Of a stretch of 64,000 bases of DNA, positions 18,014-42,962 are shown one piece after another. Numbering within the stretch: the stretch's first letter is position 1; every line of letters begins with the position of its first letter. This DNA comes from Caulobacter sp. (lineage in GTDB: Bacteria; Pseudomonadota; Alphaproteobacteria; Caulobacterales; Caulobacteraceae), in NCBI GenBank assembly GCA_030645575.1, contig JAUSMJ010000063.1, positions 1 through 64,000 of the forward strand, written 5' to 3'. The notes beneath the pieces are model-generated. The model ran no database searches. It was not told where the DNA came from and saw only the letters and a list, made by a program, of their open reading frames with translations. A program made the position numbers and the translations under genes.

Positions 18014-20039
18014 CACTTGCCTCCAGCCTCACCAGCACCACCCCTTCGCTCACCTGCCCGCCGGCATTCGCGTTGAGTTCCGCCACCACGCCATCGAACG
18101 GCGCGGCCAGGGCGTGCTCCATCTTCATCGCCTCAAGCACCAGCAGGGTCTGGCCCTTGGTCACCGTGTCGCCGGCCTTGACCGACACGGAGACGACCTT
18201 GCCGGGCATGGGGGAGATGACTGCGCCGTCGGACTCGCCGCCGTGGGCGGCCGCGTCAGTCGTGGGGCGGCGGAAGGCGAAGGCCTCGCCGGACTCGAAC
18301 ACCACGACTTCGTCCTCGTCGAGGACGAGAAGGTCTTCGGGATGGAGATCGACGTCCAGCAATTCGCCCTCAAGGATCGTTCCGCCGCACATCAGCGTCA
18401 TGCGCCGGCGCGGGGGGCCGTTCAGGCGGAAGCCGCCGGCCAGGTCCAGCGCCGACCAGGGCGTCGGCGCCTCGTCACGGGACTGCAGCTCGACCAGGGC
18501 CGTGGCGGCGACGCCGGCCACCACCGCCGACGCCTGTCCCTCGCCCAGCAGGGTTTCAAGCCTCCGCTCGATGAACCCGGTGTCCACATCGCCGGCCACG
18601 AAATCCGGATGGCTGGCGCACTTCGCCAGGAAGGCGGCGTTGGTCTTGACCGGCCAGACCTCGACGGCGGCGCAGGCGTCGGCCAGCGCCTCGGCGGCGG
18701 CTTCGCGCGTGTCGCCATGGACGATGATCTTGGCGATCATCGGGTCGTAGAAGGGCGTGACCTCGCCGCCCTCCTCGACCGCGCTGTCGATCCTGACCCC
18801 TTCTCCCATGGGGAGAAGGAGGGGCCCGCGCCCGGAGGGCGTGGGAGGTTGAGGGGGTAAGGTGTCGGCGCCGTAACCCCTCACCCTCCCGCCGGCTTCG
18901 CCGTCGGGCCCCTCCCTCTCCCGTTGGGAGAGGGTTTCGGCGGGGAGACGGAAATGCGTCAGCGGCCCCGTGCTCGGCAGGAAGCCCGTCGCCGGGTTCT
19001 CGGCATAAAGGCGCGCCTCCATGGCCCAGCCGGTCATCCCGATCTGGTCCTGGGTCAGCGGCAGCGGCTCGCCGCTGGCCACGCGCAGCTGCCATTCGAC
19101 CAGGTCCAGCCCGGTGATCATCTCGGTGACCGGGTGCTCGACCTGCAGCCGGGTGTTCATTTCCATGAACCAGATGCGGTCGGCGCGCAGGCCCTCGCTG
19201 GCGTCGGCGATGAACTCGACCGTGCCGGCGCCTTCGTAGTTCACGGCCTTCGCGGCCTTGACCGCCGCGTCGCAGACGAAGGCGCGCGTGGCCGCGTCCA
19301 TACCGGGGGCCGGGGCCTCCTCGATGACCTTCTGGTGGCGGCGCTGCAGCGAGCAGTCGCGCTCGAACAGGTGGACGACATTGCCGTGGCTGTCGCCGAA
19401 CACCTGCACCTCGATGTGGCGCGGGCGGGCGGCGTACTTCTCGATCAGCACCCGGTCATCGCCAAAGCTGGCGGCGGCCTCGCGGCGGCAGCTGGCCAGG
19501 GCGTCCTGGAAGTCGCGGGCGGCCTCGACCTTGCGCATGCCCTTGCCGCCGCCGCCGGCCACGGCCTTGATCAGCACGGGGTAACCGATGGCCTTGGCTT
19601 CTTCCTCCAGCCGCACCTCGCTCTGGTCGTCGCCGAGATAGCCGGGGGTGCAGGGCACGCCGGCGGCGATCATCAGGGCCTTGGCCGCGTCCTTCAGGCC
19701 CATGGCGTCGATCGCGGCCGGCGGCGGGCCGACCCAGATCAGGCCCGCGTCCCGCGCCGCCCGGGCGAAGGCCGCGTTCTCGGACAGGAAGCCGTAGCCG
19801 GGATGGATCGCCTCTGCGCCCGTCTGTCTGGCGGCGGCGAGGATATTCTCGGCCACCAGATAGCTCGCGCGCGCCGGGGCCGGGCCGATCAGCACCGCCT
19901 CGTCGGCCTCGGCGACATGCGGGGCGTTGGCGTCGGCCTCGGAATAGACGGCCACCGTCCGCACGCCCATCCGCCGGGCGGTGCGGATGACGCGGCGGGC
20001 GATCTCGCCCCGGTTGGCGATCAGCAGGCTTTCGATCAT
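17991..20039 (-). CDS. mccA: Methylcrotonyl-CoA carboxylase biotin-carboxylase/BCCP subunit, with in-frame palindromic insertion
   Basis: 682 residues. Biotin carboxylase (about 1-445): NRGEIARRVIRTARRMG, IHPGYGFLSENAAFA, KAVAGGGGKGMR, ERDCSLQRRHQKVIEEAPAP, FMEMNTRLQVEHPVTEMITG. The C-terminal biotinyl domain has LEAMKMEHALAAPF near 637. Pairs with mccB to carboxylate 3-methylcrotonyl-CoA in leucine breakdown. Oddity: residues ~369-414 between FRLPAE and GVRIDSAVEEG do not belong to the family; they are encoded by a palindromic repeat (18799-18934) inserted in frame in a surface loop of the carboxylase C-domain. Confidence 0.93.
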   Translation of the reverse strand: MIESLLIANRGEIARRVIRTARRMGVRTVAVYSEADANAPHVAEADEAVLIGPAPARASYLVAENILAAARQTGAEAIHPGYGFLSENAAFARAARDAGLIWVGPPPAAIDAMGLKDAAKALMIAAGVPCTPGYLGDDQSEVRLEEEAKAIGYPVLIKAVAGGGGKGMRKVEAARDFQDALASCRREAAASFGDDRVLIEKYAARPRHIEVQVFGDSHGNVVHLFERDCSLQRRHQKVIEEAPAPGMDAATRAFVCDAAVKAAKAVNYEGAGTVEFIADASEGLRADRIWFMEMNTRLQVEHPVTEMITGLDLVEWQLRVASGEPLPLTQDQIGMTGWAMEARLYAENPATGFLPSTGPLTHFRLPAETLSQREREGPDGEAGGRVRGYGADTLPPQPPTPSGRGPLLLPMGEGVRIDSAVEEGGEVTPFYDPMIAKIIVHGDTREAAAEALADACAAVEVWPVKTNAAFLAKCASHPDFVAGDVDTGFIERRLETLLGEGQASAVVAGVAATALVELQSRDEAPTPWSALDLAGGFRLNGPPRRRMTLMCGGTILEGELLDVDLHPEDLLVLDEDEVVVFESGEAFAFRRPTTDAAAHGGESDGAVISPMPGKVVSVSVKAGDTVTKGQTLLVLEAMKMEHALAAPFDGVVAELNANAGGQVSEGVVLVRLEASEGLGTGG
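18799..18934. repeat. Palindromic element inserted in frame in mccA (about 136 bp)
   Basis: Ends are the hairpins CCTTCTCCC/ATG/GGGAGAAGG (18799) and CCCTCTCCC/GTT/GGGAGAGGG (18914). The left end continues AGGGGCCCG, then an inner hairpin and GGGAGGTTGAGGGG; the right end reads the same in reverse complement (AGGGGCCCGACGG...GGGAGGGTGAGGGG). The element keeps the mccA frame open on the minus strand. A sister copy lies at 20901-21065. Confidence 0.85.
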
Positions 20040-20900: not shown

Positions 20901-21065
20901 CCCTTCTCCCAGCGGGAGAAGGAGGGGCCCGTCCTGCGAAGCCTTGGCGAAGCGGGATGGGAGGATGAGGGTGTACGGGGCCGGCGGGCGTTCGGTAAGG
21001 CCGTAACCCCTCACCCTCCCGCCGCGTTGCGTCGGGCCCCTCCCTCTCCCTCCAGGAGAGGGGGC
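20901..21065. repeat. Palindromic element between the hydratase and mccB genes
   Basis: Left hairpin CCCTTCTCCC/AGC/GGGAGAAGG then AGGGGCCCG; right end GGGCCCCTCCCTCTCC...GGAGAGGG. Inner arms ...GGGAGGATGAGGG and CCCCTCACCCTCCC face each other. Same family as the in-frame copy in mccA and, in layout, as 37719-37876 and the ends of the DUF559 cassette. Confidence 0.85.
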
Positions 21066-37718: not shown

Positions 37719-37876
37719 CCTTCTCCCCTTGCGGGAGAAGGTGGCCCGCGGAGCGGGTCGGATGAGGGGTCGGGCGCTCTCCCCGCTTCATCACAGAAAC
37801 CCGCTGTCATGAAGGGGCGGCGAGACCCCTCATCCGTCAGGCTTCGCCTGACACCTTCTCCCGCAAGGGGAGAAGG
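37719..37876. repeat. Intergenic palindromic element with hairpin ends
   Basis: CCTTCTCCC/CTTGC/GGGAGAAGG at 37719 and CCTTCTCCC/GCAAG/GGGAGAAGG at 37854. Going inward both ends have a second hairpin (CCCGCGGAGCGGG; CAGGCTTCGCCTG) then GGATGAGGGGTC / GACCCCTCATCC. So the two ends are inverted copies of [hairpin-hairpin-GGATGAGGGGTC]. No ORF inside (~158 bp). Confidence 0.88.
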
Positions 37877-39023: not shown

Positions 39024-42000
39024 ATGACAACGGGAACTGACGTAACGTCGGGCTGGACGTTCTGGATCGATCGCGGCGGCACGTTCACCGACGTGATCGG
39101 CCGCACGCCCGACGGGGTCGAGCAGACGCTCAAACTCCTGTCTGCATCGCCCTCCTACCCGGATGCGGCCGTCGAGGCGATGCGCCGCCTGCTGGCGGTT
39201 GAGCCGGCCGCGCCGTTTCCCGCCGCGCGGGTCGCGGCGATCAAGATGGGCACCACGGTGGCCACCAACGCCCTGCTTGAACGCAAGGGGGCGAAGACCC
39301 TGCTGGTCACGACGCGCGGATTCGCCGACTCGGTGATCATCGGCGACCAGTCGCGCCCCGAGCTGTTCGCGCTCGACATCATCCGGCCAGAGCCCCTCTA
39401 CAGCGGCGTGATCGAAGCCGGCGAACGGCTGGCGGCCGACGGCGCGGTGGTCGCGCCGCTCGACGCGGAAGGGCTGGCGGCCGATCTGGCCCGGGCCCGG
39501 GCCAAGGGCTTCGCCAGCGTCGCCGTCGCCTTCCTGCACAGCGACCTCAACCCCGCCCACGAACGGGCCGCCGGCGAGATCGCCCGGGCGGCGGGGTTCG
39601 ACTACGTGGCCCTGAGCCACGAGGTCAGCCCCCTGCCCCGCTTCACGCCCCGGGCCGAGACAGCGGTGGCCGACGCCTATCTGACCCCCGTGCTGCGCGC
39701 CTATGTCGACCAGGTCGCGCGGGCCGTGGCGGGCGCGCCGCTGTGGTTCATGACCTCGGCCGGAGCGCTGGTCCGGGCGCGGGTCTTCCGGGGCAAGGAC
39801 GCCGTCGTGTCCGGCCCGGCCGGCGGGGTGGTCGGCGTGGCGCGGACGGCCGAAGCCGCCGGCGCGGCGGCCGTGCTCGGCTTCGACATGGGCGGCACCT
39901 CGACCGACGTCTGCCGCTTCGCCGGCGTGCTGGAGCGGCGCGACGCGGCGAAAGTGGCGGGCGCGAAGCTGCGCAGCCCGATGCTGGACGTGGAGACCGT
40001 GGCGGCCGGCGGCGGCTCGATCCTGACCTTCGACGGGTCCCGCGCCCGGGCCGGTCCCGCCAGCGCCGGCGCCGATCCTGGCCCCGCCTGCTACGGCCGG
40101 GGCGGCCCGGCGACGGTCACCGACGCCAACCTCGTGCTCGGCCGGCTGGACCCGGCCTTCTTCCCGCCGGTGTTCGGCCCGAAGGGCGACGCGCCGCTCG
40201 ACCCGGACGCCGCCCGCGCCCGGCTGGCCGAGCTGGCGCGGGCCATGGGCCTGTCGGTCGAGGCCGCGGCCGAGGGCTTCGTCGCCGTGGCCGTCGAACA
40301 GATGGCCCAGGCCGTCCGCCGCATCTCCACCGAGCGCGGCTTCGACCCGCGCGGCCACGCCCTCGTGGCGTTCGGCGGCGCGGCCGGCCAGGTCTGCTGC
40401 CAGGTGGCCGACGCCCTGGGTGTCACCGATGTGTTGAGCCCAAAACACGCCTCTCTGCTGTCGGCCTGGGGGATTGGGCAGGCGCGGGTCGGCGGGATGC
40501 GGCAGGCCGGACTGGAACTGCCGCTGGACGGCGCGGGGCTGACCGCCGCCGCGACGCTGGCCGACCGTCTGGAGCGCGAGGCCCGCGAGGCCCTGGTCGC
40601 CCAGGGCGCGGAGGCCGGCGCCGTCGAACGCCGTCTGCGCCTGCGCTACGACGGCGCCGACGCGGCGTTGCCGATCGCGCTGGGGGATGTGGCGACGGTG
40701 AAGGCGGCCTTCGAGGACGCGCACCAAAGGCTGTTCGGGTTCGTCGAGCCGGAGCGGACCGTGCTGATCGCGAGTGTTGAGGTTGAGGCGACGGAAAACG
40801 CCCCCTTCCCCCTTCATGGGGGAAGGGTTGGGGATGGGGGCCAACCCCCGCCCACCGCCAGGCACTTCGTCCCCCAGCCTCGCGCCGCCGTCTCACGCGC
40901 CCGCCGCCTGCGCCAAGCCATGCCTGTCAGCGAGCAGAAGCTCTGGGACGCCCTGCGGAAGCTGAAGCTCCACATCCGTCGGCAGGCGCCCATGGGCCGA
41001 TACACGGCCGACTTCATCCATCACGGCTCGAAGCTGGTGATCGAGGTCGATAGCCGGCGTCACGATCTGCCGGACGCGCAACTGCACGACCTGGAACGTG
41101 ACGCGTGGTTCGGTTCTCAGGGTTATCGGGTGATGCGCGTTCGCGATGACGATGCCTTCGGCCGACCGTTCGATGTGGCCGATCTTGTCGCGTCCGAGAT
41201 CCGGAAAGGGCCCCCATCCCAACCCTTCCCCCATGAAGGGGGAAGGGCTCGCGTCGTGCAGGCTGATCAGTTTGAGGCCCTCGACGGCCCGGCCCTGATC
41301 ATCCGCAGCGACACCCAGATCGCCGTCGCCGCCGGATGGCGCGCCACCGCCGAACCCGACGGCCTGATCCGCCTGACCCGCGTCACCCCGCTGACCGCCG
41401 CCGTCCTCGCGGCCGACGCGCCCGACCCCGTCACCCTGGAGCTGTTCAACCGCCGCTTCATGGGCGTGGCCGAGGCCATGGGCGCGGCGCTGGAGCGGAC
41501 CGCGCACTCGGTCAACATCAAGGAACGGCTCGACTTCTCCTGCGCCCTGTTCGACGCCGGCGGCGGGCTGGTGGCCAACGCGCCGCACATGCCCGTGCAC
41601 CTGGGCAGCATGGGCGCCAGCGTGCGGGCGACGACCGCGCGGCATCCGGTGCTGCGGCCCGGCGAGGCCTTCGCGCTGAACAACCCCTATTTCGGCGGCA
41701 CCCACCTGCCCGACATCACCGTCGTCATGCCGGTGTTCATGGACGCCGCCGCCCCGCCCGCCTTCTACGTCGCCGCGCGCGGTCATCATGCCGACGTCGG
41801 CGGGGTGCAGCCCGGGTCCATGCCGCCCTTTTCCAAGACGCTGGACGAGGAAGGCGTGCTGCTCGACGCCGTGCCGATCATGCGCGAAGGCCGGTTCCTC
41901 GAGGCCGACACCCGCGCGGCCCTGCTGACGGGCCGCTGGCCCGCCCGCGCGCCGGACCGCAACATCGCCGACCTGAAGGCCCAGATCGCCGCCTGTCAGG

Positions 42001-42962
42001 CCGGGGCGGCCGCCGTGGCGGCGATGATCGAGGCCTATGGAGCGGACGCCGTCGCCCGCTACATGACCTTCGTGCAGAAGAACGCCGAACAGGCCGTGCG
42101 CCGGGCCGTGACAAAGCTGCACGACGGCGAGGCCCGCGTGCCGATGGACGGCGGTGGCGAGATCGTCGTGACCATCAAGGTCGATGCGGCGGCCGGCGAG
42201 GCGGTGCTCGACTTCACCGGCTCGGCCGACCAGCTGGCCAGCAACTTCAACGCCCCCTCGGCCATCGTCGATGCGGCGGCGCTGTACGTGTTCCGCAGCC
42301 TGGTCGATGACGACATCCCGCTGAACGCCGGCTGCCTGACGCCATTGAAGATCATCACCCGGCACGGCTCGATGCTCGATCCCGAGCCGCCGGCGGCCGT
42401 CGTCGCCGGCAATGTCGAGACCAGCCAGCATGTGGTCGACGCCCTCTATGCGGCGCTGGGCGTGATGGCCAACAGCCAGGGCACGATGAACAACTTCACC
42501 TTCGGCGACGAGGATCGACAGTACTACGAGACGATCTGCGGCGGCGCGGGCGCGACGGCCCGGCGCGACGGAACCAGCGCCGTGCACAGCCACATGACCA
42601 ACAGCCGATTGACCGATCCGGAGATTCTCGAGCGCCGGTTCCCCGTGCGGGTCGAGGCGTTCGCCATCCGCACCGGTTCGGGCGGCGAGGGCCGGCGGCG
42701 CGGCGGCGACGGGGCGACCCGCCGCATCCGCTTCCTCGCGCCGATGGAAGCCGCCCTGCTCTCGTCACGCCGAAGCCACAGTCCGCGGGGAATCTGCGGC
42801 GGCGGCCCCGCCCTTCCGGGCCGGCAACGTTTGATAACCGCCGAGGGCGCGGTAAGGGAACTTACCGGCTGCTTCTCGATTTCCGTGCGGCCAGGCGATG
42901 TCGTCGAGATCGAAACTCCCGGGGGCGGCGGTTTCGGTTCCAACACCGGCGGCGACGTCTGA
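39024..42962 (+). CDS. HyuA-HyuB fusion (5-oxoprolinase type) with an inserted DUF559 domain
   Basis: 1312 residues. Residues ~8-590: hydantoinase A/oxoprolinase with DRGGTFTDVIGRTPDG, KMGTTVATNALLERKG, GLGFDMGGTSTDVCRF-like GFDMGGTSTDVC near 288 and FVAVAVEQMAQAVRRIS. Residues ~794-1300: hydantoinase B, LFNRRFMGVAEAMGAALERTAHSVNIKERLDFSCALFDAGGGL, PVHLGSMG, DITVVMPVF, NSQGTMNNFTFG. ATP-dependent 5-oxoproline or hydantoin hydrolysis. Between them residues ~594-741 are a complete DUF559 endonuclease domain (see cassette). Without it the length (1164) is near normal for oxoprolinase fusions (~1200). No intein motifs, so the insert is a translated passenger. Confidence 0.9.
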   Translation: MTTGTDVTSGWTFWIDRGGTFTDVIGRTPDGVEQTLKLLSASPSYPDAAVEAMRRLLAVEPAAPFPAARVAAIKMGTTVATNALLERKGAKTLLVTTRGFADSVIIGDQSRPELFALDIIRPEPLYSGVIEAGERLAADGAVVAPLDAEGLAADLARARAKGFASVAVAFLHSDLNPAHERAAGEIARAAGFDYVALSHEVSPLPRFTPRAETAVADAYLTPVLRAYVDQVARAVAGAPLWFMTSAGALVRARVFRGKDAVVSGPAGGVVGVARTAEAAGAAAVLGFDMGGTSTDVCRFAGVLERRDAAKVAGAKLRSPMLDVETVAAGGGSILTFDGSRARAGPASAGADPGPACYGRGGPATVTDANLVLGRLDPAFFPPVFGPKGDAPLDPDAARARLAELARAMGLSVEAAAEGFVAVAVEQMAQAVRRISTERGFDPRGHALVAFGGAAGQVCCQVADALGVTDVLSPKHASLLSAWGIGQARVGGMRQAGLELPLDGAGLTAAATLADRLEREAREALVAQGAEAGAVERRLRLRYDGADAALPIALGDVATVKAAFEDAHQRLFGFVEPERTVLIASVEVEATENAPFPLHGGRVGDGGQPPPTARHFVPQPRAAVSRARRLRQAMPVSEQKLWDALRKLKLHIRRQAPMGRYTADFIHHGSKLVIEVDSRRHDLPDAQLHDLERDAWFGSQGYRVMRVRDDDAFGRPFDVADLVASEIRKGPPSQPFPHEGGRARVVQADQFEALDGPALIIRSDTQIAVAAGWRATAEPDGLIRLTRVTPLTAAVLAADAPDPVTLELFNRRFMGVAEAMGAALERTAHSVNIKERLDFSCALFDAGGGLVANAPHMPVHLGSMGASVRATTARHPVLRPGEAFALNNPYFGGTHLPDITVVMPVFMDAAAPPAFYVAARGHHADVGGVQPGSMPPFSKTLDEEGVLLDAVPIMREGRFLEADTRAALLTGRWPARAPDRNIADLKAQIAACQAGAAAVAAMIEAYGADAVARYMTFVQKNAEQAVRRAVTKLHDGEARVPMDGGGEIVVTIKVDAAAGEAVLDFTGSADQLASNFNAPSAIVDAAALYVFRSLVDDDIPLNAGCLTPLKIITRHGSMLDPEPPAAVVAGNVETSQHVVDALYAALGVMANSQGTMNNFTFGDEDRQYYETICGGAGATARRDGTSAVHSHMTNSRLTDPEILERRFPVRVEAFAIRTGSGGEGRRRGGDGATRRIRFLAPMEAALLSSRRSHSPRGICGGGPALPGRQRLITAEGAVRELTGCFSISVRPGDVVEIETPGGGGFGSNTGGDV
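40803..41247. mobile_element. DUF559 cassette with hairpin inverted-repeat ends, in frame inside the Hyu gene
   Basis: Left end CCCTTCCCCC/TTCAT/GGGGGAAGGG then TTGGGGATGGGGGCC; right end is its reverse complement with one base fewer (GGCCCCCATCCCAA then CCCTTCCCCC/ATGAA/GGGGGAAGGG). Inverted repeats of ~40 bp, 445 bp overall. Inside, on the plus strand, residues ~612-738 of the host ORF read RAAVSRARRLRQAMPVSEQKL, LHIRRQAPMGRYTADFIHHG, LVIEVDSRRHD, DLERDAWFGSQGYRVMRVRDDD: DUF559 (Vsr-like PD-(D/E)xK) with its normal N-terminus and D..ExD site kept. The reading frame passes through without a stop. Confidence 0.88.

Follow-up and report, generated by a model that had tools for sequence, protein, structure and literature searches.

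The DUF559 cassette that interrupts a HyuA–HyuB gene of Caulobacter sp. is probably, with a chance that we put at roughly 60%, one instance of a minimal mobile element that is widespread and consists of a DUF559 gene and inverted ends of the potential intrastrand triplex (PIT) type, with DUF559 as the mobiliser of PIT-ended elements. DUF559 genes are associated with PIT, ends are shared, copies are dispersed, vacant sites are free of PIT, and nuclease subtype and end type are inherited together. The whole stretch of DNA analysed, 64,000 nucleotides in length, is referred to below as the window, and the claims made earlier for its cassette as the original prediction.

The host open reading frame (39024..42962, plus strand; ORF search and Pfam) encodes a HyuA–HyuB (hydantoinase/oxoprolinase) fusion of 1312 aa with an interrupted linker, and Pfam finds the domains Hydant_A_N, Hydantoinase_A, DUF559, and Hydantoinase_B in it, in the order that had been predicted. 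The 445-bp cassette leaves this frame open and carries a DUF559 domain (PF04480; 40890..41205, plus strand), which shares the frame with the host and which was assigned to the EDxHD/Vsr-fold nucleases by Pfam, alignment, and a structural model; its match to PF04480 has E 7.4e-23 and 80.9 bits, with a gathering cut-off of 20.6. The predicted hairpin-ended inverted repeats around the full domain were also recovered: they lie at 40803–40842 and 41208–41247, are 40 nt long each and 90% complementary, and their outer 30 nt match exactly. Each repeat opens with a perfect 10-bp hairpin, CCCTTCCCCC-N5-GGGGGAAGGG, from which a G-rich tail runs inward. The left PIT end (40803..40840, plus strand) thus reads as the hairpin CCCTTCCCCC-TTCAT-GGGGGAAGGG, the link TTG, and the third strand GGGATGGGGG, with the tail directed inward, and the right PIT end (41210..41247, minus strand) is its inverted copy.

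Between the cassette ends, the first in-frame ATG, GTG, or TTG is found at 40920, within the DUF559 domain; there is no in-frame start upstream of the domain in the cassette, so a complete DUF559 would be made, if at all, only as a fusion to HyuA. An intein was rejected, as had been predicted, since Pfam detects only the DUF559 and MTES_1575 domains in the insert and no splicing domains. With up to two mismatches allowed, a 25-mer of the window repeat turns up 37 times across the genome and its reversed control pattern not once, which argues that the repeat is not a product of chance.

A PIT consists of a pyrimidine arm, a purine arm, and a third strand that mirrors the purine arm. The motif reportedly goes back to Hoyne and Maher, and BoxC is said to be another name for it. 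Both ends of the window cassette have the pyrimidine arm, the purine arm, and a mirrored third strand according to the G.GC and A/T.AT rule. The mirroring of the purine arm by the tail is seen in arm GGGGGAAGGG with tail GGGATGGGGG and in arm GGGAGAGGG with tail GGGTGAGGG. In some PIT families a second hairpin stands between the arm and the third strand, and these form the nested-hairpin class. According to the available text of Holder et al. (2015, PMC4666352), over 260 genomes have been surveyed for PIT/TM repeats, which were linked with genome instability but to no mover; triplex folding of the TM motif was reported in vitro, and the in vivo footprint gave no support for a stable triplex.

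We searched for a hairpin with a third strand within 400 bp of DUF559 in a set of 75 alphaproteobacterial loci, obtained from 106 rows by leaving out 31 partial or weak ones. PIT was present at 73/75 loci, with 6/138 in control windows of the same loci, and on both sides at 52/75, with 0/138 in the controls. Inverted repeats scoring at least 16 surround DUF559 at 51 of the 75 loci and 0/138 control windows taken from these loci; in the cross-pair null, 12/384 reach this threshold, probably because the loci share end types. The result extends across phyla: among the best 80 of 572 relatives, taken from named genomes that include Gamma-, Beta-, and Deltaproteobacteria, Chloroflexi, Nitrospiria, Dadabacteria, and Cyanobacteria and have a GC content of 30–71%, PIT accompanies DUF559 at 71 loci and is two-sided at 49 (controls 6/148 and 1/148), two of the 80 being duplicates of loci in the first set (L289 = L089, L297 = L112). 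The finder made no PIT call at 2/75 and 9/80 loci; flanking repeats of another kind are present at L087 and L105 of the first set. Chance or base composition as the source of the link was rejected on the strength of the control windows and of shuffled flanks, in which the finder returned 0/75 alphaproteobacterial and 0/80 cross-phyla loci.

An earlier permutation of arms and tails was partly circular, because the triplex rule had itself selected the units, and it is replaced here by a test free of the rule. Units defined by a hairpin and G content, without the triplex rule, were found at 53/75 loci, 30 of them two-sided, with 3/138 and 0/138 in the controls; the arm–tail triplex-rule score in these units was 0.859, and 2000 permutations averaged 0.777 and reached at most 0.806.

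Within the genus, all 23 testable DUF559 loci have PIT, and 21 of them on both sides (controls 6/46 and 0/46); 29 loci had been fetched, and six that were too short were left out. DUF559 matches were present in 56/61 genomes of the genus, with 1–13 in each, among the matches listed. The window's own genome has six DUF559 genes, and all six are bounded by PIT ends; the inverted hairpin repeats that flank them differ in their letters. The CCCTTCCCCC ends of the original prediction were rejected as the defining signal: they represent one family among many, and other DUF559 cassettes carry other letters. Its proviso that DUF559 cassettes elsewhere might lack these ends applies to the letters, which do differ, and not to the architecture, which is kept; the architecture survives because most of the DUF559 loci tested have ends of the triplex type.

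Nine further loci, from plasmids and E. coli, gave PIT at six, and no call was made at one Bacillota and two cyanobacterial loci; at the latter two, short C5/G5 hairpin repeats are present. E. coli ycjD has PIT on a single side, and in E. coli MG1655, TM no. 9 in the table of Holder et al. (1351204–1351239) lies between fabI and the DUF559 gene ycjD, at a distance of about 170 nt from the latter. On a plasmid of Deinococcus psychrotolerans (1092–1586; L154), DUF559 lies between paaD and paaZ with an inverted repeat of 56 nt that is 98% complementary, with the hairpin toward the gene and the third strand outward, the reverse of the window cassette. On a plasmid of Synechocystis sp. B12 (1093–1539; L151), DUF559 splits what appears to be a single BREX methyltransferase gene, pglX; a search for the empty site of this cassette found no close record.

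The model of the window DUF559 has a pLDDT of 93.3, and the solved folds nearest to it are 3HRL, a DUF559 protein, and then the homing endonuclease I-Bth0305I, which we take to be of the EDxHD type. In the ranking of folds, 3hrl is first, 3r3p second and third, mitoribosome chains fourth and fifth, and Vsr sixth (1cw0) and eleventh (1vsr). The E, Q, D, ExD, H, D, and R positions are kept, with Ser in place of the Gly that usually follows ExD. As judged from the model, then, the domain has the EDxHD/Vsr-like PD-(D/E)xK nuclease fold, and the placement proposed in the original prediction agrees with both the fold ranks and the retained catalytic columns. Kosinski et al. (2005, PMC1189080) counted YcjD among the PD-(D/E)xK proteins of a group that has a profile able to detect Vsr.

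In Caulobacter, the DUF559 protein VsrA causes an SOS response in cells without the cytosine methyltransferase ScmA and has been put forward as a repair enzyme of the Vsr type, according to the available text of PMC12907096; the VsrA-dependent response suggests that DNA is damaged in vivo by at least one DUF559 protein. We know of no agreed role for the large DUF559 family. It would be in line with the proposal for VsrA if DUF559 were a host mismatch-repair gene of the Vsr type and the adjacent PITs were terminators or control elements, and the finding of a place that covers at least 80% of the ycjD query in 3333/5426 E. coli genomes fits domestication. We regard this reading as very improbable: it is opposed by the range of 0–13 DUF559 matches per genome within the genus, among the matches listed, as well as by the in-frame landing in hyuAB, by the presence of ends at either side, and by the existence of gene-free elements that share them. 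In a separate setting, experimental evolution of Legionella revealed three hotspots of mutation and recombination, each a segment with a transposase and DUF559, as described in the available part of PMC12308824.

The site of the window cassette was compared among relatives. HyuAB orthologues were found in 42/61 genomes searched, and 30 loci were read. In the nearest clade (13 loci, L051–L063, with L062 truncated by a contig end), a DUF559 insert is present in the linker at two, those of the window's genome (G000) and of G026. Another hairpin element, CCGCTCATCCCGG..CCGGGATGAGCGG or near variants, occupies the linker at seven loci (L052, L053, L055–L058, and L061, with L057 a remnant); L060 holds a third kind, TGTCATCCCGG..CCGGGATGACA, and L062 a fourth, a C/G-rich double hairpin. 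Among the 13 clade loci, L059 and L063 are without any such element, and the linker is of ordinary length in the more distant loci L064–L080. Insertion at an interdomain linker is as predicted, the place being variable among relatives, and the same insert is not shared by all homologues, since it is absent from most relatives. The predicted empty site was recovered in part: DUF559 is confined to 2/13 clade loci, and the nearest relatives mostly hold other hairpin elements, with two holding none. In-frame palindromic inserts thus seem to be tolerated in the HyuAB linker, which has the look of a hotspot and of a permissive landing place that several element families use.

The two cassettes of the clade, in G000 and G026, encode proteins that are 74% identical, with a dS of 2.8, a value near saturation for the simple NG86 method used, and a dN/dS of about 0.07; the host gene flanking them has a dS of 0.40 and 0.84. 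From these sequence comparisons, the cassettes may have arrived separately or been exchanged, and the DUF559 protein may be under purifying selection.

Elements with PIT ends also occur without the nuclease gene. The window contains three inverted PIT–PIT pairs of this MITE-like form, at 37719..37876 (nested-hairpin type), at 20902..21064 (with an imperfect third strand in the left unit), and at 18797..18934 (with an imperfect left unit), and many of the 37 sites of the window 25-mer are arranged in inverted pairs, several of them gene-free and about 127 nt apart. In the relative G025, a PIT–PIT MITE of about 130 bp is dispersed, with both ends present at 30/30 loci tried with a loose pattern; in the alignment its ends are sharp and its flanks unrelated. 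The loose pattern placed the left end of two copies (L190, L191) too far out, and the true ends were taken from the alignment. A DUF559 cassette of the same genome (L215) has both ends in common with this MITE, and, judging by these ends, it is apparently related to the MITEs as a source element. At four of the copies (L189, L191, L194, L198), the A(A)GATC of the element directly follows or overlaps a TAA or TAG stop codon, so that the element may prefer the ends of genes.

Vacant sites were found for both forms. In the window's genome, 701 bp with the C74 cassette lie between two convergent genes, which are separated by 10 bp in G011, 7 bp in G036, and 49 bp in G034; 231 bp of other sequence lies there in G028 and about 2.3 kb of other sequence in G026, and a search for the flanks in G025 found no match. 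For the G025 MITE, 5/12 sites (L184, L189, L190, L193, L194) are vacant in at least one of six relatives, with 0–23 nt between the flanks; these sites lack PIT, 0–23 nt being too few to hold one. Across the vacant sites of both forms, the flanks are 69–87% alike and the junctions mostly intergenic; at the limited resolution of such a comparison between species, a target-site duplication is not visible at the five vacant MITE sites, and the exact position of a cut could not be read off.

Three candidate empty sites in E. coli were rejected. In ChlosBP-23-1 (L159), which lacks ycjD at the locus, an RND efflux operon and a TetR regulator lie upstream of fabI, so the ycjD locus of this one strain is a replacement. 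In Nissle, the PIT pair between alx and sstT does not give a precise empty site, as the left unit is absent and one hairpin is kept. In the alternative ygfF–gcvP allele (two strains), bglA replaces ygfF.

The vacant sites bear on the possibility of homing by repair, in which DUF559 would cut a vacant allele that bears PIT and the cassette would be copied by recombination between PITs, no new sites being reached. The EDxHD homing nuclease I-Bth0305I is indeed among the nearest solved folds, and the dS of the G000/G026 DUF559, far above that of its host gene, looks as if the gene had been exchanged or inserted twice. Against this, the vacant sites of the C74 cassette and of all five MITEs carry no PIT, and the MITE ends are sharp with unrelated flanks; we consider homing unlikely.

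The type of end follows the type of nuclease. The end class, short link or nested hairpin, is the same at both ends of 43/52 loci, and on the DUF559 tree the PIT class changes 12 times, as compared with 20.6 times for shuffled labels, none of 500 shuffles giving so low a value; the tree has few columns, 1/75 rows is too short, and near relatives inflate this test. In a tally of 142 genomes, a strict short-link PIT pattern was present in 25/51 DUF559-positive genomes, weak matches included, and in 5/91 negative ones, with 517 and 14 copies, respectively, and with 1–4 copies in each of the five negative genomes. When only strong DUF559 matches were counted as positive, the figures were 23/37 and 7/105. 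PIT of the type present in the window's genome goes undetected by the short-link pattern (0 matches there), and the reversed control of this pattern matched once, among the matches listed. PIT-rich genomes are DUF559 genomes.

Host factors or RAYTs could be the movers of PIT elements, and one may suppose that PIT is moved or made by a RAYT-type transposase or by replication slippage, DUF559 being a mere passenger or else a repair gene that was captured. The five of 91 genomes with PIT and no detected DUF559 would fit such an origin, replication errors at TM sites are discussed in the available text of Holder et al. (PMC4666352), and the window's genome has three Y1 (RAYT-type) transposase genes (C4:11843-12169, C43:30152-30472, and C51:17871-18188; L048–L050). 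These genes, in turn, have no PIT within 400 bp (0/3) and are accompanied by palindromes of another kind, and on this ground RAYT was rejected as the owner of the PIT repeats; a passenger would explain neither the association at 73/75 and 71/80 loci, nor the concordance of ends, nor the tracking of the tree, and this origin appears improbable. The palindromes near the Y1 genes (for example, GGGGACACGTAC and GGGACAAGCAGTCCC) form a second palindrome system in the genome.

If DUF559 is the mover, the cassette would be the autonomous form and the gene-free PIT–PIT pairs its non-autonomous, MITE-like derivatives. The Vsr/EDxHD-fold DUF559 may recognise the folded hairpin or triplex of a single-stranded end, for instance on the lagging strand, and may nick at or beside it; the freed or copied strand would then go in elsewhere, the strand intermediate and its joining being steps that we infer. 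DUF559 would, by analogy, move PIT elements as RAYT is thought to move REPINs, and landing in coding DNA would be tolerated where the insert stays open in frame and within a linker, as in HyuAB. As regards the selfish cassette of the original prediction, the mobile-looking form with one nuclease gene and hairpin ends was borne out, and its spread by the endonuclease is a presumption that our proposal shares.

PIT repeats and the nuclease fold were each known before, and their joining appears to be new: a search of the open-licence literature found, among the matches listed, no paper that joins DUF559 to PIT or palindromic elements. DUF559 would offer a mover for the long-known, unexplained PIT/TM repeat, and the link makes both questions testable with a single enzyme and an oligonucleotide. 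If the proposal is true, a nuclease type is newly assigned to lone, hairpin-ended elements, for which, to our knowledge and by the same search, DUF559-type nucleases had no earlier assignment. Triplex-forming DNA would then have a possible use in nature, and the VsrA-linked DNA damage response in Caulobacter could be read in another way. A bolder form of the proposal, to which we give even odds, is that DUF559 is the founder of a separate class of transposable elements, in which a lone Vsr-fold nuclease recognises its own ends by way of an intrastrand triplex and PIT/TM repeats are the remains and satellites. Intrastrand triplex DNA would in that case serve biologically to signal transposition, which would also account for reports of instability near PIT/TM repeats.

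With the PIT/TM repeats as described in the available text of PMC4666352, the elements share the three-block motif, the inverted pairs, the many copies, and the variation between strains. In the same portion of that source, Holder et al. found no tie of TM repeats to transposons, phages, plasmids, or the functional class of flanking genes and tied no nuclease to them, and the nested-hairpin class described here falls outside their loop limit of 1–6 nt (PMC4666352). As in the REP/REPIN–RAYT system outlined in the accessible part of PMC3733652, there is a one-gene source flanked by palindromes, with non-autonomous inverted pairs and some copies within genes, and the inverted PIT pairs are likewise dispersed over many loci. 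The PIT elements differ in having a nuclease of the PD-(D/E)xK Vsr fold and triplex ends, whereas RAYT is a Y1/HUH transposase. The GTAG tag stands directly before the hairpin in 0/108 units and within 5 nt before it in one, and GTAG or CTAC occurs within the first 7 nt after it in three; by transposase type and tag, the PIT elements are not members of the REPIN–RAYT family.

Rickettsia palindromic elements are also mentioned in PMC3733652. They and the window insert have in common an in-frame palindromic insert translated within a host protein. The Rickettsia elements are not known to encode a nuclease, and unlike them the window insert carries a whole conserved nuclease domain. With Vsr, I-Bth0305I, and Caulobacter VsrA, which itself contains DUF559, the window domain shares the predicted fold and catalytic-type residues; it differs from Vsr and the EDxHD homing endonucleases in that DUF559 stands between triplex ends, occurs in many copies, and has gene-free derivatives.
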